A stretch of DNA of 35,808 bases, taken from contig JASHSB010000065.1 in NCBI GenBank assembly GCA_030036945.1, positions 1 to 35,808 of the forward strand. Reading direction: 5' to 3'. The notes under the pieces are model-generated. The model did no database searches. It saw only the letters and a list, made by a program, of their open reading frames with translations, and was not told the DNA's origin. The position numbers were made by a program, and so were the translations under genes. This document shows, piece by piece, positions 1,962 through 12,003 of the stretch. Within the stretch, counting starts at the first letter, position 1. Each line of letters starts with the position of its first letter. This DNA comes from Methylovirgula sp. (GTDB lineage Bacteria; Pseudomonadota; Alphaproteobacteria; Rhizobiales; Beijerinckiaceae).

Positions 1962-3191
1962 TCACGTCGGCGCATCGATTGCGGGCCTGCGTAGAGCGAC
2001 GAGCATCGGCCCGTAACGGCCGGCAAATATGGCGAAGCTCGCGATCCATAAAATCGCCGAGAAGGCCAGCAGCTGCAGCTGCGGTTCTCCATCGACGAAC
2101 GCGGCCACGATCCGCGTTACCGCCGAGACATTGATCGTTACGTAGAGCAATATCGTGAGTCCGTCCGCTTCGAGGGGCCGGCCGGTGTGGGCGAGAGAGA
2201 CCCGCGTCATTATTGCGAGCGCCATCGTGCCCATCGCGCCGGCGGTAAAGGCGTGGATGCCGGCGGCTAAGGGGAGCGCCGCGTCAAGAAGCGCCGCGCC
2301 GAGCAGCGCCGCGCCGATAACGATCCAAAGATAGCCGACGTGCAGGATAAGAAGCAAAGGCTCGGCGCGCGTCGCGTAGCCGTGCCAGTGCGTGACGTGG
2401 ATGAAGTTGAGCACAGCCGCCAGGAGCAACACGGCGCCGAAAATAGGCTGTCCGGGCGCGACGGCCCAGCCGATCAGGCCGGCGTGGAGCGCTCCTAACG
2501 CAACGCGGTCGAGCAACCCGTGCGTGGCAGGCGGCTTGGCGATGCCGCGTGCCAGCAGCCAGTTGCGCGTGAAGAGCGGAACGATCTTGGTGCCGACGAC
2601 GGAGATCAGAATAACGATCGTCGAAAGGCCCAGGCGCCAACCGAGACCCCGCGGCACGTCGAATCCGCCAACCTGAAGAAACATCAGCAGATCGGCGACG
2701 CACAGCAACGCGACGGGCATCGGCAGGAGGAGGTTGTGCCAGCTTCGCGCCGCAACGATATCCCGAGCGACGACGATACAAAGTGCAGCGGGGAAGGCGA
2801 TATCGAGGACGGCCGCGAGCCAGAGTGGAACGAAAGTTGAGAAGAGACAGGCAATGCGTCCGACGAGCCAGAATGTGACGAGGCACGCAAGCGGCTTGCC
2901 TTGCAGCGGCGCACGACCGGTCCAGTTCGGGATGGCCGTAAGCAGGAAGCCGGCAATCGCCGCGCCCACGTAGCCGAACAGCATTTCGTGGATGTGCCAA
3001 GTCAGTGGATCGAACCGGCTCGGCACGGCGAAGCCGGAGACCAGTATCAAAATCCACAGAAGAACTGTAAGCGCGGACCAAATGCCGGCGGCGAGAAAGA
3101 ACGGCCGAAAGCCCAAGGAAAGAATCGCCGACCGCTCATTCCGCCGCATGCCGTAGCGGGAAATCGACCGGCCGTCCGTAACGTCGCTCAT
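1962..3191 (-). CDS. nnrS: NnrS family haem-copper membrane protein
   Basis: Integral membrane protein of 409 residues with about twelve hydrophobic helices. NnrS proteins protect against nitric oxide and nitrosative stress and are reported to bind haem and copper. Family signatures seen are LSLGFRPFFLAAGIWSAL near the N-terminus, WHIHEMLFGYVGAAIAGFLL (residues about 65-84) with conserved histidines, IPNWTGR, and THWHGY and GAMGTMALAIMTR in the C-terminal half. A palindrome resembling the NsrR operator lies about 94 nt upstream of the ATG. DUF6522 follows by 23 nt. Together with the divergent nsrR-like gene and the sNOR operon this indicates a job in NO tolerance. Confidence 0.93.
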   Translation of the reverse strand: MSDVTDGRSISRYGMRRNERSAILSLGFRPFFLAAGIWSALTVLLWILILVSGFAVPSRFDPLTWHIHEMLFGYVGAAIAGFLLTAIPNWTGRAPLQGKPLACLVTFWLVGRIACLFSTFVPLWLAAVLDIAFPAALCIVVARDIVAARSWHNLLLPMPVALLCVADLLMFLQVGGFDVPRGLGWRLGLSTIVILISVVGTKIVPLFTRNWLLARGIAKPPATHGLLDRVALGALHAGLIGWAVAPGQPIFGAVLLLAAVLNFIHVTHWHGYATRAEPLLLILHVGYLWIVIGAALLGAALLDAALPLAAGIHAFTAGAMGTMALAIMTRVSLAHTGRPLEADGLTILLYVTINVSAVTRIVAAFVDGEPQLQLLAFSAILWIASFAIFAGRYGPMLVALRRPAIDAPT

Positions 3192-3284: not shown

Positions 3285-3307
3285 TAGGTATATATAAAAT
3301 GCATCTT
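3285..3307. promoter_or_regulatory. Putative NsrR operator upstream of nnrS
   Basis: The right arm AAATGCATCTT (3297-3307) is identical to the half-site of the known NsrR consensus (AAGATGyATTT-N-AAATrCATCTT). The left arm TAGGTATATAT matches it at 7 of 11 positions. The site is in an AT-rich stretch 94 nt before the nnrS start and shares ATGCATCTTAT with the site before norS. Assignment rests on consensus match only. Confidence 0.6.
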
Positions 3308-3339: not shown

Positions 3340-3723
3340 TTACTTTTCGGGAGAGTGAGAATTCTTGACCGCGTGGTCGCGTAGATAATCGGCGAGCGCG
3401 ACGGCATTGTTACGTTGACGATCGCGCGCCGCAAAAAGTAAGGTGAGGCGTTCGTGCTTCGCCATTTCAACAAGATCTCGGATCAATACGCTCTGTGCGT
3501 CAAGTTCGCGGCGATAGCGGCGGCAAAACTCGTCCCAGCGTCCCGGTTTATGCCCGAACCACTGGCGGAGCTCGGCGCTGGGCGCGACATCCTTCAGCCA
3601 GACACGCAGCGCAGCGGTTTCTTTCGCGACGCCGCGCGGCCAAATCCGATCGACCAACACACGGGCGCCGTCTTCGGAATCAACCGGATCGTAGATGCGT
3701 TTGGTACAGATTTCGATGTGCAT
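3340..3723 (-). CDS. DUF488 family protein
   Basis: Soluble protein of 127 residues starting MHIEICTKRIYDP. It has the DUF488 core: a KRIYDPVDSEDGARVLVDR strand-helix, IWPRG, WLKDVAPSAELRQWFGH, and a C-terminal LTLLFAARD followed by a NNAVALADYL helix. The biochemical role of the family is unknown. The longer ORF opening at 3882 would run over the nsrR promoter region, so the ATG at 3723 is preferred. It is divergent from the nsrR-like gene (144 nt shared intergenic region) and lies upstream of nnrS on the same strand, but nnrS seems to have its own promoter and operator in the gap. Confidence 0.85.
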   Translation of the reverse strand: MHIEICTKRIYDPVDSEDGARVLVDRIWPRGVAKETAALRVWLKDVAPSAELRQWFGHKPGRWDEFCRRYRRELDAQSVLIRDLVEMAKHERLTLLFAARDRQRNNAVALADYLRDHAVKNSHSPEK

Positions 3724-3867
3724 CCGAGTGTGTGGCCGGCGGATAATTGCGTCGCGGCGCGGCGATCCCGTGACGATGGTAATAGATACACTTACGATAG
3801 TTCTTATACATTGCCGTTGGCGCCGGCAAGCGATAAGCTTGCCGAATACGGTTCCGGAGATAGAGGC

Positions 3868-4311
3868 ATGCGACTCACCCACTATACGGACTATTCCCTA
3901 CGTGTCCTCATCTATCTTAGCCTTCAGCAGGATCGATTGAGTTCGATCCGGGAGATCGCGGACGCCTATGAAATATCCGAAAGCCATCTGATGAAGGTGG
4001 TTCAAGCGCTCGGCCAATTCGGCTACGTGGCGACACTGCGCGGCCGCGGCGGCGGTCTCAAGCTTGCCAAGCCGCCAAGCGAGATCAATCTCGGCGAGGT
4101 CGTACGCAATACAGAAGACGATCTAGCTCTGGTCGAATGCTTCTCAAGCGCCTCGGAGTGCAAAATTGCCGGCCCCTGTCGGCTCACACACGTGCTAAGA
4201 AAAGCACTCGAAGCGTTCCTGCAGGTCCTCGATGAATATACGGTGGCCGATCTTCTGCGGCCAAAATCGAGTTCCTTGAAGGCGAGTCTCGGATTGATAG
4301 CCGCTTCCTGA
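3868..4311 (+). CDS. nsrR: Rrf2 family regulator, NsrR-like
   Basis: Rrf2-type winged-helix transcription factor of 147 residues. The N-terminus MRLTHYTDYSLRVLIYLSLQ and the recognition region ISESHLMKVVQALGQFGYV are typical, as is GRGGGLKLA for the wing. Three cysteines, C91, C98 and C104 (C-x6-C-x5-C), occupy the place of the NsrR Fe-S ligands, and D8 matches the aspartate ligand known in Streptomyces NsrR. An NO-sensing 4Fe-4S repressor is therefore likely. GGAG lies about 11 nt before the ATG. The ORF track opens far upstream (3454) across the DUF488 gene, which is spurious. Context supports the call: nnrS on one side, an NO reductase-like operon on the other, each preceded by an NsrR-type palindrome. 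IscR/RirA-type identity is less likely. Confidence 0.85.
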   Translation: MRLTHYTDYSLRVLIYLSLQQDRLSSIREIADAYEISESHLMKVVQALGQFGYVATLRGRGGGLKLAKPPSEINLGEVVRNTEDDLALVECFSSASECKIAGPCRLTHVLRKALEAFLQVLDEYTVADLLRPKSSSLKASLGLIAAS

Positions 4312-4353
4312 GCGGTCTCGACAAATAGCTTGATCGCCGCACGTCCGTATTAT

Positions 4354-4376
4354 AACATGCATACCGTATGCATCTT
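4354..4376. promoter_or_regulatory. Putative NsrR operator before norS operon
   Basis: AACATGCATAC-C-GTATGCATCTT: the core ATGCATA-CCG-TATGCAT is a perfect inverted repeat. The arms match the NsrR consensus half-site AAGATGCATTT at 8 of 11 (left) and, reading the complement, 9 of 11 (right). It ends 13 nt before the ATG of the operon and overlaps a TATAAC stretch (4351-4356) that could be a -10 element. That position fits repression by promoter occlusion. Confidence 0.7.
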
Positions 4377-4389
4377 ATAGGGGGACGCG

Positions 4390-4923
4390 ATGATCCAAGA
4401 CGTGGTGTGGGACGTTTCAATCGCGCTCATGGGATCGCTCGCCGCGGTGTTTGCCGGCGTGGCGGCGGGCGCCGAAGTTCCCCTGACGAATTACGGCCCG
4501 GCGATCGCATCCGCCTATCGCCTGCGAACCTGGCTCTTCGCGTTGGCGGTCGTCGTTCTCGTCGGCGTGAATTATCGCGCCCTTGGTGCGCTGCCTTACA
4601 TAGCGAACCCCGCCGAACAATTGGGCTTGGCGGTAAAGCGCGCCGATGCGAGCGGTCAACAATGGTCGTGGACGGTTCAGCCCAATAGTTTCGTGGTCGG
4701 CCAGACCGTCGAATTCTACGTCACCAGCAAGGACGTGAACCACGGCTTCGGACTTTACGATCCGCACATGCACCTGGTCGCCCAAACGCAGGCGATGCCG
4801 GGTTTTACTAACGTCCTGCGCTACACGTTCACCGAGGCCGGAACTTATCAGGTTCTGTGCCTCGAATATTGTGGGCTCGGACATCACCTCATGAACACGC
4901 AGATCAACGTCGCCGCGCACTAA
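4390..4923 (+). CDS. norS: CuA subunit II of sNOR-type nitric oxide reductase
   Basis: Membrane-anchored cupredoxin of 177 residues, much shorter than cytochrome c oxidase subunit II. One or two N-terminal hydrophobic segments (about 8-28 and 47-62) precede a periplasmic domain. The CuA ligand set is complete: H118 in KDVNHGFG, then C157, C161, H165 and M168 in CLEYCGLGHHLM. It would accept electrons from cytochrome c and pass them to subunit I. It opens the five-gene operon downstream of an NsrR-type site; the next ATG follows 24 nt after its stop. The order CuA subunit, subunit I, SenC, membrane protein matches, from memory, the norSY-senC-orf1 cluster of ammonia oxidisers. A B-type oxidase subunit II is the alternative. 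Confidence 0.78.
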   Translation: MIQDVVWDVSIALMGSLAAVFAGVAAGAEVPLTNYGPAIASAYRLRTWLFALAVVVLVGVNYRALGALPYIANPAEQLGLAVKRADASGQQWSWTVQPNSFVVGQTVEFYVTSKDVNHGFGLYDPHMHLVAQTQAMPGFTNVLRYTFTEAGTYQVLCLEYCGLGHHLMNTQINVAAH

Positions 4924-4947
4924 GCCGGTGCGGCCGGGGAGGACGCC

Positions 4948-6402
4948 ATGACCGGTATCGAAGCTGTCGGAAGCCGCAGCAGGATCAATGCAACCGCCGC
5001 GGTACGCGCCTATCTCGCGACCTGCGGGATCGTTCTCTTGCTGATGATGTTGCTCGGACTGACCATGCGGCTCGCGCAGGCGCAGTGGATCGATGTCGAG
5101 CCAAATTTATTCTACGTCGTCATGACGATGCATGGCGCTGGAATGGTCGGCATTGCCGGCCTCGGGGGCGCCGCCGTGATGTGGCACTTCGTTCGTCGCT
5201 ATGTCCCGGTCAGCACCGCTATTTTCGTCGCCAATCTTGTCTTCTTCCTGATCGGCGCGGCGCTGATTCTCGGCGCCGGGTTCATCGGTGGCTTCGCCGG
5301 CGCGTGGACCTTCCTGTATCCGCTGCCGGGCCATTCCGGCGGCCTGTGGTCCGCGAACGGCGCGGCCGCCTATATGGCGGGCCTCCTGGTCATCGGCGTC
5401 GGCTTCCTGCTGCTCCATCTCGACATCGCGCGCGGCATCATCTCCATCTATGGCGGTCTCGGCGCCGGGCTCGGCGTCAAGCAAGCCTTCGGCTTCGCGC
5501 CGGAGAAGGATGGGCCGCCGCCGGCGGTCGCCGCTGCGACCATGGCGGCAATCTCTAACGTCATCGGTATTGTCGTCGGCGCTGTCGTGCTGATTCTGTC
5601 GCTCGTCAATCTCTATGCGCCGAGCTTCACATTCAACACGTTGGCAGCGAAGAATTTGATCTATTATTTCGGTCACACGTTCATCAACGTGACGATCTAC
5701 ATGGCGGTTATCGCTGTATATGAAATTCTGCCCGTCTACACGCATCGGGCCTGGAAAACGAACCGCGTTTTCTACCTCGCTTGGGTGCTTTCGACGTTGA
5801 TGGTGCTGACTGTCTATCCGCATCACTTACTGATGGACTTCGCCATGCCGACCTCGATCCTCGTCGCCGGCCAGATCATCTCCTGGCTGAGCGGCCTGCC
5901 GGTGCTACTCGTCACGGCTTTTGGAGCTTTGACCAACGTTTATCGATCCGGCCTCAAATGGGACGCGGCGGCGGGGTTGGTCTTTATGGGCGTCGCCGGT
6001 TGGGCGATCGGCATCATTCCCGCCGTTGCCGACGGAACTATCCCGGTGAACAGCGTCATGCACAATACGCAATGGGTACCCGGTCATTTCCATACCTATC
6101 TCCTGCTTGGCATGATGGCGATGATGCTCGGTTTCATGACCTATTTGGCCGGTCCGAAATCGCCTTCCCACCTGGCGCCGGCAGGGGTGTGGCTTTACCT
6201 CATTGGCGGCACGACCTTCGTCCTTGCCTTTCTCGCCGCCGGCAGCGCCAGCGTCCCGCGTCGCTATGCGGTGCACTTGCCCGCGTGGCTTGCCTATGAT
6301 CGCGCCGGATCGATCGGAGCGAGCCTTGCGGTCGCGGGCGCATTGATCCTGATCGTACGATTTCTCGTTTCGTTGCGATCGCCAATCGACGCCACGCCGT
6401 GA
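4948..6402 (+). CDS. norY: Heme-copper subunit I, sNOR-type NO reductase
   Basis: Polytopic heme-copper superfamily catalytic subunit of 484 residues with about twelve helices. All six metal histidines can be placed: H62 in MHGAGM and H382 (low-spin haem), H380 in NTQWVPGHFHTY (active-site haem), and H243 in FGHTFINVTIY plus H292/H293 in YPHHLLMDF (copper B). In oxygen reductases the helix VI motif is GHPEVY, with the catalytic Tyr four residues after the His; here position 247 is Asn. Loss of that Tyr argues for NO rather than O2 reduction. NTxWVPGHFH resembles B-family enzymes. Its TGA overlaps the GTG of senC. The gene probably forms with norS a cytochrome-c-dependent NO reductase under NsrR control. 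Name from gene order and active site; activity is untested. Confidence 0.78.
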   Translation: MTGIEAVGSRSRINATAAVRAYLATCGIVLLLMMLLGLTMRLAQAQWIDVEPNLFYVVMTMHGAGMVGIAGLGGAAVMWHFVRRYVPVSTAIFVANLVFFLIGAALILGAGFIGGFAGAWTFLYPLPGHSGGLWSANGAAAYMAGLLVIGVGFLLLHLDIARGIISIYGGLGAGLGVKQAFGFAPEKDGPPPAVAAATMAAISNVIGIVVGAVVLILSLVNLYAPSFTFNTLAAKNLIYYFGHTFINVTIYMAVIAVYEILPVYTHRAWKTNRVFYLAWVLSTLMVLTVYPHHLLMDFAMPTSILVAGQIISWLSGLPVLLVTAFGALTNVYRSGLKWDAAAGLVFMGVAGWAIGIIPAVADGTIPVNSVMHNTQWVPGHFHTYLLLGMMAMMLGFMTYLAGPKSPSHLAPAGVWLYLIGGTTFVLAFLAAGSASVPRRYAVHLPAWLAYDRAGSIGASLAVAGALILIVRFLVSLRSPIDATP

Positions 6403-6983
6403 CCCGCGGCTTTGCCCTTCTTCTCGGCCTCGTGTTGTGTGTGGGGGTTGGCGCGCTTGCCTGGGCTACGGAAGGATTTCGCGTCATCACGAGCCAAGGC
6501 GCGCGGCAGCTTTCGATCGCGCGCCATCCGATTCCAGTCCCGAACGTGCGGCTCGTCGATCAGGACGGACATACATTCTCCTTCGCCGATTATCGCGGCA
6601 GAACAATTCTTGTCGATTTCATCTATACGCGCTGCCCGAGGCTTTGCGGCGTGCTCGGCGACGATTTTCGCCAGGCCTTCTCGCGATCCGATGCCAAGAA
6701 CGACCGCGTTGCGTTCCTCAGCATCAGTTTCGATCGGGCCGACGACCGTGACACGCTGCGATTTTATGCCGATCGCTATGCGGCGAAGACGCCGGGCTGG
6801 CGCGTCGCGATGCCTTGCGACGCACACGGTCTTTCGACATTGTTGCAAACATTCGGGATTACCGTCATCTCCGACGGCATGGGCGGATTCGTGCATGACG
6901 GCACGATCTATCTCGTGGACGAAAGCGGACGCCTTGCTCGTATCCTCGATCCCGGTACACGCATTGCGGCAGGGCATCCATGA
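6399..6983 (+). CDS. senC: SenC/Sco copper chaperone
   Basis: Thioredoxin-fold copper chaperone of 194 residues. One N-terminal hydrophobic segment (about 4-22) would export or anchor it in the periplasm. The copper site is complete: C79 and C83 in RCPRLCG, and H166 in GFVHDGTIYLVD. Sco proteins insert copper into, or reduce, the CuA site of subunit II, which fits its place after norSY. The GTG start overlaps the norY stop by four bases (GTGA), and its own stop overlaps the next start (ATGA). Translational coupling is likely. Confidence 0.88.
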   Translation: MTRGFALLLGLVLCVGVGALAWATEGFRVITSQGARQLSIARHPIPVPNVRLVDQDGHTFSFADYRGRTILVDFIYTRCPRLCGVLGDDFRQAFSRSDAKNDRVAFLSISFDRADDRDTLRFYADRYAAKTPGWRVAMPCDAHGLSTLLQTFGITVISDGMGGFVHDGTIYLVDESGRLARILDPGTRIAAGHP

Positions 6984-7591
6984 ATACGACGCGCGCGTTG
7001 GTCCCCGTCGCTTGGGGGATGCTGTGGATTGCGCGCGCGCCGCTCGAACACGAAATGGCGCTGCATATGGCCGTGCAGCTGCCCTTGCTGATCGGCGTTG
7101 GCTATATGCTCGCGACCTTTTTGCGCCCGTATGAACCGCGCTGGTTCGCCGAGTCCGACTGGCTCGGTATTCCCGGGCTGCTGCTCGTCGTTTTTGCGAC
7201 ATCCTTCTGGATGTTGCCGCGCATGCTCGACTTGGCGCTCTCCGAGCCTTGGATCGACTCCGCCAAGTTCGCAAGCTTGCCCTTGCTTGCCGGCTTGCCT
7301 TTGGGCTCGAGCTGGCCCCGGATGCCGGGACTTGGCCGCGCCTTCCTGTGGGCGAATTTTATTCCGAAGCTTGGCGCCATCGGCGGCCTTTACCTTGCCG
7401 CCCCGACGCGACTTTGCGCCTACTACCGACTGGACCAGCAGGCGGCCGCCGGCATTGCACTGATCGCGGTCGCGATCGTGCTTGGGACTTGCTGGTCTGT
7501 CATCGTGTTTGTCGGATCGCCGCCGTTCTGGTCGCGAGCCGGCATACGGCGGCAACGCGCGCGGCACGAAATTCTCGAGGCCGGCGAATGA
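6980..7591 (+). CDS. Membrane protein of sNOR operon (orf1-like)
   Basis: Predicted membrane protein of 203 residues with about five hydrophobic segments (roughly 5-20, 29-48, 62-80, 97-110 plus 120-142, and 157-180). The region LEHEMALHMAVQLPLL recalls the histidine-containing first helices of CtaG/Caa3_CtaG assembly factors, so a role in metal-centre assembly is possible but unproven. It starts within the senC stop (ATGA) and ends within the start of the haemoglobin gene (ATGA). Position suggests it corresponds to the orf1 that follows senC in norSY clusters. No catalytic motif recognised. Confidence 0.72.
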   Translation: MNTTRALVPVAWGMLWIARAPLEHEMALHMAVQLPLLIGVGYMLATFLRPYEPRWFAESDWLGIPGLLLVVFATSFWMLPRMLDLALSEPWIDSAKFASLPLLAGLPLGSSWPRMPGLGRAFLWANFIPKLGAIGGLYLAAPTRLCAYYRLDQQAAAGIALIAVAIVLGTCWSVIVFVGSPPFWSRAGIRRQRARHEILEAGE

Positions 7592-8040
7592 CGAACGATG
7601 CTCTTGCCGCGGCGGCGCGCCGCGCGGCACTTACCGCGCAAATCCAGACGGCGACCGGAATCGACGAGCCGACGATTGCGCGCCTTGTCCGCGCCTTTTA
7701 CGCGCGCGTACGCGAAGACTCAGAAATCGGTCCCATTTTCGCGGAGCGGATCGAGGATTGGGAACCGCACCTCGAGCGGATGTGTGCCTTCTGGTCTTCC
7801 GTGGCTTTGATGAGCGGGCGTTACCATGGCAGCCCCATGCAGAAACATTTGCCGTTACCGATCAGGGCGCGGCATTTCGATCGTTGGCTGGCGCTGTTCG
7901 AAACGACCGCGCAAGAACAATGCCCGCCGGAAGCGGCGAAACATTTCATCATGCTCGCCCATCGGATCGCCGAGAGCCTGGAACTCGGTCTCGCCGGCGC
8001 CAAAGGAGTGATTTTGGAACGCGGCCAGCGCTTCGTCTGA
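7588..8040 (+). CDS. Group III truncated haemoglobin
   Basis: Truncated haemoglobin of 150 residues, group III (Campylobacter Ctb-like). Family features seen are LVRAFYARVREDSEIGPIF (B helix with Tyr/Phe), DWEPHLERMCAFWSSVALM, a GRYHGSPM segment, and the proximal-side HFDRWLALF, with H96 the likely haem ligand. Ctb-type globins are NO-inducible and lessen nitrosative stress. The ATG overlaps the orf1 stop, so it is the fifth and last gene of the operon. The longer ORF in the track (7249) starts inside orf1 and is spurious. Confidence 0.88.
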   Translation: MTNDALAAAARRAALTAQIQTATGIDEPTIARLVRAFYARVREDSEIGPIFAERIEDWEPHLERMCAFWSSVALMSGRYHGSPMQKHLPLPIRARHFDRWLALFETTAQEQCPPEAAKHFIMLAHRIAESLELGLAGAKGVILERGQRFV

Positions 8041-8209
8041 GCGCCGGGACGACATGATCTCCGGACTGCGTCAAATCATACTTCCGATCGCATAGATGGC
8101 ACGGGCGTGGAGTCCGCTTGCGCGATCGCTTGCTCCGTGAATTGCAATGTGATCGCTTTGGACAACCGCCGGCGAAGACCACGCGGGAGCGATTCGGTTA
8201 TCGCCGGCC

Positions 8210-9627: not shown

Positions 9628-10557
9628 TTATGCTTTCATTTCGCGATAATAGCGCGAAATGCGGTCGAACCATTCGTGCCGCGCCTGCAGATGCACCATG
9701 CCGAGGCTGCGCTGCGGCAACTGCAGCGACGCAAGCAGCGCATCGACTTCACGGCGCGCCGAAACCTGCGAGGCGGAGAGTGCGTTGCTGCGCATCGCGC
9801 CCTCGATCGGGTCGAGCGGGGTCAAACCGATCGGAAACAGCTCGCGGAAGATGACACGGTCGTGCAGGCCTTCGGTAGTGCGGAACTGCAATTCGAGGGC
9901 GAGCCGCGACAGGCTCGTCTGGATCTGCCGCGCGTTGTTCGATTGCGTCGAGGATATGCGGTTGCGCACCAGCACCCAATCGATGATGCCTTGGTCGACG
10001 AGCCTGCGCTTGCGCCGCGCCTCGAGCACGAGATCGGCGTAATGCGCGACTTGACCGCGCTGCGAACGGTCGTGGTGCACGCGCGAGAACACGTCGACGT
10101 CGATGAACGAATCGTTGATCGGCGAGACCAGCGTGTCGGCGAGCGAATGGGCGAGCCGCATCAGATAGGAGTCGGTCGCCGGTGTATCGATGATGACGAA
10201 CTCGTATTCGTGCTCCACTTCGGCGATCGCCGTCGCGAAGGCGCCAAATTCGGCGGTCTCGTTGTCGCGCAGGTTCTTCGAATTGCCGCGGTCGAGAGCG
10301 TGATGATAGGGCAGTTCGACGTTCCACGGCGCGTCGGCGGCCCAGGAGGCGCGATTTTCGAAGAACCGCGTGAGGGTGCGCTGCCGAGTATCGAGGTCGA
10401 TGGTGGCAACGCGAAACCCCGCCTTCAGAAGTGCGACGCTGACGTGGATCGAAAGGGTCGATTTGCCGCTGCCGCCTTTTTCATTGGCAACGACGATGAC
10501 GTGCGCGGTGCGCAAATCGGGCGGCTCGTAAGCCATGGCATGCGCGGTCATTCCCAT
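9628..10557 (-). CDS. mipZ: ParA-like division-plane ATPase MipZ
   Basis: ParA/MinD-superfamily ATPase of 309 residues. HVIVVANEKGGSGKSTLSIH contains the deviant Walker A motif (KGGSGKST); DLDTRQRTLTRFFENR and FVIIDTPATDSYLMR follow as switch I and Walker B regions. MipZ forms gradients from the chromosome poles and inhibits FtsZ assembly in alphaproteobacteria. The C-terminal part with SRRALELQ-like and GLHDRVIFRELFPIGLTPLD regions agrees with MipZ rather than with plasmid ParA. The ORF in the track opens at 10671; ATGs at 10557, 10551 and 10536 all fit, and 10557 follows a GGGAG stretch. It appears to lead an operon with the PCu(A)C gene. Confidence 0.88.
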   Translation of the reverse strand: MGMTAHAMAYEPPDLRTAHVIVVANEKGGSGKSTLSIHVSVALLKAGFRVATIDLDTRQRTLTRFFENRASWAADAPWNVELPYHHALDRGNSKNLRDNETAEFGAFATAIAEVEHEYEFVIIDTPATDSYLMRLAHSLADTLVSPINDSFIDVDVFSRVHHDRSQRGQVAHYADLVLEARRKRRLVDQGIIDWVLVRNRISSTQSNNARQIQTSLSRLALELQFRTTEGLHDRVIFRELFPIGLTPLDPIEGAMRSNALSASQVSARREVDALLASLQLPQRSLGMVHLQARHEWFDRISRYYREMKA

Positions 10558-10782
10558 TTCCCGCTCCCGGCCGACCGCGCAGAATCGCTTCGACACAGAG
10601 TCTGCATATGCAAGACCTAACGGCCGGCAAAGATGCTGGCAATGGCGTGGCCCATCCGCAGGCGCCGGCACGTTCTAAGCTCGGTGGAAAAATGGCGGAA
10701 ATTGCGACGCCGATGCAAAACAGCCATAAAACCGGCGAAATCGTCCATGCCTTCGCGGCAGTTCTTCTTGCGTGGCAGGATC

Positions 10783-12003
10783 TTAAGAGAACCGCCGATT
10801 TTTGCCGGCGTCGCCGACCGGCGTGCCGCCGTAAAGCCAATCGTAGCGCGCCACCATCCGCTCTTCGCCCAGGGCGCGAATGGCGAGATCGCGGCATGCC
10901 GCGGGCACGCCGGAGAGATGATAGAGCAAGCCTTGACGGCGCGATTCGCGCTGCACGCGCTCGATCCGCACGCGCCGCGCCGCGCCGAACTCGGCAAGCG
11001 CCGCGGGGACGTCGCAATTCGGCTTGAGAAAGATGGCGAGCGCAGCTGCGTCTTCGATTGCCTGTGCCGCGCCTTGCGCGAGGAAAGGCAGGATCGGATG
11101 CGCGGCATCGCCGAGCAACGCGACGCGGCCGGCGCTCCAATTTACCGGCGGGGAACGTTCGATAAGCGGCCAGATGCGCCATTCCTCGGCCGTCGCGATC
11201 AGCGCGCCGACGCGGCGGTCCCAATCCGCGAAGCGCGCCGCGATCTCGCGCGGATCGCCGGGCTCGGCCCAAAGGTCGGCGTTCGCCTCGAACGCATTCG
11301 GGCCGCCGAATACCGCTACGATGTTGGTAATCCTGCCGCCGCGCAGCGGATAATGCACGATATGTGCGCCGGCGCCGAACCACAGCGTGCTCTCCGGCTG
11401 GCGTAGGTCGAGCGGCAGACGATCCGATTTGACAAGTGCCCGCCACGCGAAGTCGCGCGCAACGTGCGGCGTCGCATCGGCCGGGTTCAGGCGCTCGCGA
11501 ACCAAAGAGCGCGTGCCGTCGGCGCCGAGCAGGCAATCGGCGGCGAAGCTCGCCGATTTCGCGCCTCGTAATGCGGTGACCATGACGCCGCTTTCCGTCG
11601 CAGAAAAGTCGGTCAGCGCGCATTCAGTTTCGATGCGGATCGACGGTAACGCGGCGACGGTGTCGAGGAGTGCGCTTTGCAGATCGCCGCGGTGCGCGAG
11701 CAGGTAGGGTGCGCCCCAGCGCCGTTCGGCATTTGCGAGCGGCAAGCGAGCGATCGTTGCTCCGTCGCGGCTGCGCCGGATGTGGATGGCGCGCGGCGCC
11801 AGCGCCGCCGTGCCAAGGCGCGGCAAAACGTCGAGCTCGCGCAAAATCGCGCTGGCATTGGGCGAGATCTGCAGACCCGCGCCGACCTCCTTTTTCAGTC
11901 GGCTGCGTTCGAGGAGCGTGATGCTCCAGCCCGCTCGCGCCAAGGCCAGGGCGGCGGTCAGGCCGCCGACCCCGGCGCCGTCAATCAGCACGTGCCCGCT
12001 CAT
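10783..12003 (-). CDS. FAD-dependent monooxygenase
   Basis: Class A flavoprotein monooxygenase of 406 residues, similar to salicylate/3-hydroxybenzoate hydroxylases and the UbiH family. The dinucleotide-binding motif GAGVGGLTAALALARAGW is at residues about 9-26, the GADGTRS motif near 160, and ALLGDAAHPILPFLAQGA (flavin ribityl binding) near 290. The aromatic substrate cannot be told from sequence. It is 23 nt downstream of the zinc-finger gene on the same strand, probably in one operon. A role in ubiquinone ring hydroxylation is possible but not shown. Confidence 0.9.
   Translation of the reverse strand: MSGHVLIDGAGVGGLTAALALARAGWSITLLERSRLKKEVGAGLQISPNASAILRELDVLPRLGTAALAPRAIHIRRSRDGATIARLPLANAERRWGAPYLLAHRGDLQSALLDTVAALPSIRIETECALTDFSATESGVMVTALRGAKSASFAADCLLGADGTRSLVRERLNPADATPHVARDFAWRALVKSDRLPLDLRQPESTLWFGAGAHIVHYPLRGGRITNIVAVFGGPNAFEANADLWAEPGDPREIAARFADWDRRVGALIATAEEWRIWPLIERSPPVNWSAGRVALLGDAAHPILPFLAQGAAQAIEDAAALAIFLKPNCDVPAALAEFGAARRVRIERVQRESRRQGLLYHLSGVPAACRDLAIRALGEERMVARYDWLYGGTPVGDAGKNRRFS

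Follow-up and report, generated by a model that had tools for sequence, protein, structure and literature searches.

A probable sNOR-type nitric oxide reductase operon, with asparagine at the site of the cross-linked tyrosine, in a Methylovirgula-like alphaproteobacterium

Heme-copper oxygen reductases carry an active-site tyrosine on helix VI, or on helix VII if they belong to the C family. What, then, does a heme-copper subunit I reduce when it has its metal ligands but asparagine (N247) at the first position and valine (V286) at the second? The question is raised by a norY-like gene at 4948–6399 (+) of the window, the whole 35,808-nucleotide stretch of DNA analysed here. Its 484-amino-acid product matches the COX1 Pfam family at 153 bits, and inspection of the open reading frame revealed no in-frame stop. 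Helix VI reads GHTFINVTIY (5671–5700, G242 to Y251 of the translated frame), as the original prediction had it. The CuB motif within it, H243-T-F-I-N247-V-T-I-Y251, occupies 5674–5700 (+), with H243 at 5674–5676, N247 at 5686–5688 (AAC) and Y251 at 5698–5700; the span first given, 5674–5701, starts correctly at the H243 codon and ends one base beyond that of Y251.

N247 lies four residues after the CuB ligand H243, at the position of the cross-linked tyrosine in oxygen reductases. Three alignments uphold the earlier claim that asparagine has replaced this tyrosine: N247 pairs with the His+4 tyrosine of ba3-type oxidases in an alignment to Thermus ba3 from the PDB, falls on the tyrosine column again in a profile–profile comparison with a ba3/bNOR profile, and occupies that column in a multiple alignment that includes ba3, bNOR, eNOR and A-family rows, where all the ba3-type and A-family rows examined retain tyrosine. 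Conservation was assessed in 91 sequences from several phyla, comprising the window protein and relatives from order-, class- and collection-wide searches. N247 is identical in all 91, as is each of the six metal-binding histidines that the original prediction had described as retained: H62 (5131–5133, +; low-spin heme ligand on helix II, by homology), the CuB ligands H243 and, on helix VII, H292 and H293 (5821–5826, +), and, on helix X, H380 and H382 (6085–6093, +; active-site and low-spin heme ligands, respectively, by homology). Because N247 never varies in these sequences, the substitution is an old family trait.

The subunit I gene belongs to a four-gene operon (4390–7591, +) encoding a CuA subunit II, subunit I, a SCO/SenC protein and Orf1. 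The norS gene (4390–4923, +) has a COX2 Pfam match above cut-off and a complete CuA motif, CLEYCGLGHHLM; the pattern CxxxCxxxHxxM is present in 93 of 93 subunit II sequences, and the closest solved relatives of NorS are ba3 CuA subunits. The senC/SCO1 gene (6399–6983, +; SCO1-SenC Pfam, 49.2 bits) encodes a copper assembly protein. The membrane protein encoded by orf1 (6980–7591, +) is conserved in sNOR operons and gave no match in a Pfam search; homologues lie 3′ of norY in nearly all relatives, including Nitrosomonas europaea. The order norS-norY-senC-orf1 recurs in nearly all loci examined, among them those of N. europaea (L080), N. eutropha (L077), Nitrosospira (L045), Nitrococcus (L071) and Neobacillus (L061), and matches the published sNOR operon of ammonia oxidisers, norSY-senC-orf1 (PMC4940428).

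Subunit I is approximately 50% identical to N. europaea NorY and groups with it in trees, in a clade with the NorY proteins of Nitrosomonas, Nitrosospira, Nitrococcus and Neobacillus that stands apart from the ba3, bNOR and eNOR rows. The window protein sits on a divergent sub-branch with proteins from Beijerinckiaceae, Xanthobacteraceae and Acetobacteraceae MAGs (71–94% identity). Within its own genus, two members have the gene (81% and 94% identity), and the nearest relative, at 94%, is a Methylovirgula MAG (L020), which makes the host a Methylovirgula-like bacterium of the Beijerinckiaceae. A published comparison (Table A4 of PMC8756737) tabulates the residue: Y in oxygen reductases, E in cNOR and qNOR, Q in eNOR, D in gNOR, and N in both sNOR and CuANOR. 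Asparagine at this site is thus an already published sNOR hallmark rather than a new feature. With family definitions for sNOR and eNOR as relayed by papers citing Murali 2024 (PNAS), the residue, operon and clade identify the window protein at the sequence level as an ordinary member of the described sNOR family: it has asparagine for the cross-linked tyrosine, six histidines, an upstream CuA subunit II, the gene order and a place in the NorY clade, all shared with the NorSY-SenC-Orf1 systems of N. europaea, N. eutropha, Nitrosococcus oceani and Ruegeria pomeroyi. Unlike these named sNORs, the window operon lies in a divergent sub-branch and is followed by a globin gene.

The genes around the operon point to nitric oxide. 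Directly after orf1 comes a gene for a truncated-hemoglobin-like protein (7588–8040, +; Bac_globin Pfam, 34.2 bits), and upstream lie a gene for an Rrf2-family regulator (3868–4311, +; Rrf2 Pfam, 129 bits) and the divergent nnrS (1962–3191, −; NnrS Pfam, 351.5 bits), encoding a nitric-oxide-response membrane protein. An Rrf2 gene adjoins the sNOR operon of R. pomeroyi as well, and NsrR is encoded close to that of N. oceani (PMC3772326). The window regulator has three cysteines in the cluster-binding region of its sequence and appears NsrR/RirA-like; its NCBIfam scores are 141.7 bits for RirA and 130.2 bits for NsrR, both under their own cut-offs, and the slightly better RirA score counts against a role in NO metabolism. 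Between nnrS and the Rrf2 gene, overlapping the start of the latter, is an open reading frame (3340–3882, −) that is conserved in L020 and L091 and presumably encodes a DUF488-like protein. A gene for a DUF6522 protein (1642–2049, −) adjoins nnrS; in L035 and L084, too, homologues are found close to sNOR operons, a hint that this family is linked to nitric oxide metabolism.

Two predicted NsrR-type operators lie on either side of the Rrf2 gene. With the consensus gATGyAT-N5-ATrCATc (PMC1274295), a site reading CATGCAT-ACCGT-ATGCATC (4356–4374, +; one mismatch) ends 15 bp ahead of the norS start codon, near the Rrf2 gene, and a second site (3287–3305, +; two mismatches) lies upstream of the divergent nnrS. 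These are the only matches with at most two mismatches in the 35.8-kb window, where 0.29 would be expected. Among relatives, 21 of 88 norS upstream regions contain an NsrR-like site at the same threshold, versus approximately 0.6 in dinucleotide shuffles, although close relatives are not independent, so that separate cases are fewer than this count. These sites commonly lie about 20–25 bp before the estimated norS start, often near an Rrf2 gene. In the close relative L020 the operator differs in sequence (CATGTATAATAAATACATC) and keeps its palindrome, which suggests selection. The predicted operators offer new support that favours a role of sNOR in NO metabolism.

We consider it very probable that the product of the operon, NorSY, is an sNOR, a copper-containing enzyme of the heme-copper superfamily that would reduce and thereby remove NO in this Methylovirgula-like alphaproteobacterium. 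The substrate, electron donor and regulation that we infer are as follows. A c-type cytochrome probably donates electrons to CuA in NorS, from which the low-spin heme (H62, H382) would relay them to the high-spin heme (H380) and CuB (H243, H292, H293) of NorY, where two NO would be converted to N2O at the binuclear site. To cleave O2, an oxygen reductase normally takes an electron and a proton from the cross-linked tyrosine, and NO coupling does not; because it needs no such tyrosine, the position would be free to hold asparagine, with the polar side chain of N247, which is not redox-active, in its place. SenC probably loads copper, and SenC and Orf1 may together aid assembly of the copper sites or of the complex. 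An NsrR-like repressor from the adjacent gene would release the operon and nnrS once NO damages its Fe-S cluster. In 2024 sNOR was counted among the proposed, not biochemically characterised, families (PMC11388526), and we found no purified sNOR described in the literature examined.

A transcriptomic study of N. europaea prefers a different role for sNOR, that of a high-affinity O2 reductase, having found its transcripts up 2.7- to 10.8-fold under O2 limitation (PMC6967387). Such a terminal oxygen reductase would have to manage without the cross-linked tyrosine; its B-type relatives have high O2 affinity (PMC6967387), and the CuB, heme and CuA ligands are oxidase-like. For the window operon we regard this role as improbable. 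Its regulator, operators and neighbours are linked to NO, the ba3-type and A-family rows examined keep the tyrosine that is gone here, and no replacement is found at the C-family position. That position lies six residues ahead of the HH pair on helix VII, where Ruegeria CcoN reads YLWAGSHH; by comparison with this sequence, the window protein has V286, and all 91 sequences have V, T or A, which rules out a C-family-type tyrosine as replacement. The original prediction had named a tyrosine placed in the manner of C-family oxidases as the observation that would count against it, and in the sequences none was found. Y290, two residues ahead of the HH pair, is Phe in 22 of the 91 sequences. For both subunits, the solved structures nearest in sequence are those of the ba3-type (B-family) cytochrome c oxidase of Thermus thermophilus, which differs in having the tyrosine and in most residues of its K channel. 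We take the ba3 K-channel positions to be Y244, Y248, S309, T312 and T315; most are changed in the window protein, where a pairwise alignment gives V254 for Y244, V319 for S309 and G326 for T315, with T312 and Y248 retained as T323 and Y258.

Reduction of O2, or of both O2 and NO, without a His-Tyr cofactor could also be imagined with Y251 as a relocated redox or proton-relay tyrosine, and this we judge quite unlikely. Y251 is invariant in the 91 sequences and lies one helical turn past N247. In an AlphaFold model of subunit I (pLDDT 86.4), which among solved folds most resembles heme-copper oxidase subunits I, a continuous helix (residues 231–265) holds both H243 and Y251. Structure prediction had been proposed as a check on whether Y251 could occupy the site; because Y251 is eight residues, or approximately 12 Å along the helix axis (1.5 Å per residue), from H243 in this cofactor-free model, it probably does not reach the cross-link position.

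That the enzyme is an eNOR or a bNOR rather than an sNOR is very unlikely. All three kinds are heme-copper nitric oxide reductases that have CuA and lack the tyrosine, and bNOR likewise has asparagine, as an earlier Bacillus study reported (PMC3475470). In the rows examined here, to which we assigned bNOR and eNOR labels by residue, length and tree position, eNOR carries glutamine (GHSSQQ) and forms its own clade, so that N247 and the tree rule it out. Of the helix VI comparison with NorY and eNOR originally suggested, the NorY side fits, with asparagine, and the eNOR side does not. The bNOR or qCuANOR type I enzyme of Bacillus azotoformans shares the asparagine, a CuA subunit and SenC, but bNOR rows (L114–L117, GHTLVN) are 562–566 amino acids long and cluster with ba3 oxidases, whereas the 484-residue window protein falls outside that clade and with NorY. 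The asparagines of bNOR and sNOR may be of separate origin: the tree places two changes, and a single origin is weakly rejected at a marginal AU-test p = 0.046, a reading kept tentative by long branches. Three Bacillus genomes (L106, L107 and L108) have a second, sNOR-like paralogue (45–46% identity, GHIFANCTIYM) in addition to sNOR and bNOR, giving three Asn-type subunits I per genome. In Thermomicrobium roseum (L119:2317-3801), a deeply branching subunit I of the Asn type (GHTLVNLNIYL) lies beside a formate/nitrite transporter gene, and the R. pomeroyi sNOR cluster also holds such a gene.

Finally, a decayed or non-catalytic oxidase subunit, which loss of the catalytic tyrosine taken alone might suggest, is already contradicted by conservation, as the original prediction had argued: the frame is open, all ligands and the four-gene operon are intact, and the invariance of N247 and the six histidines across 91 sequences from several phyla excludes sequencing error and leaves decay with next to no probability.

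The nearest relative shows a larger nitric oxide gene cluster around the same operon. Homology between the window and L020 runs from 3362–7534 (2024–6182 in L020) and resumes at 7618–8056 (10484–10922), and a block of approximately 4.3 kb in L020 is missing from the window between 7534 and 7618. In L020, genes for a CRP/FNR regulator, a CopD-like protein and a qNOR with COX1 and NorB cytochrome-c-like domains lie between orf1 and the globin gene (L020:6350-10124). From the aligned sequences, the difference is an insertion or deletion inside the cluster, whose qNOR and CRP/FNR regulator add to the NO-related context. Apart from NorY, the window's 85%-complete genome yielded one heme-copper subunit I, that of a bo3 ubiquinol oxidase, which leaves sNOR as the sole nitric oxide reductase of the superfamily detected in that genome. 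A search of the same 85%-complete genome found no NirK, and the source of NO may therefore be external; a search with PF02239 (cytochrome d1) gave weak partial matches only, which say little either way.

These results bear on how sNOR genes are read in genomes. KEGG names bNOR and sNOR coxA (PMC11388526), and in public plasmid records the Asn-type subunits I of R. pomeroyi (SPO_RS20755, L118:3971-5401) and T. roseum are annotated 'cbb3-type cytochrome c oxidase subunit I'. Such labelling of sNORs as cytochrome c oxidase is routine, and through it an ability to use up NO and produce N2O goes unnoticed. Whether NO or O2 is the substrate of sNOR is disputed in the literature for Nitrosomonas, and the recurring NsrR-type operators provide a testable argument for NO.
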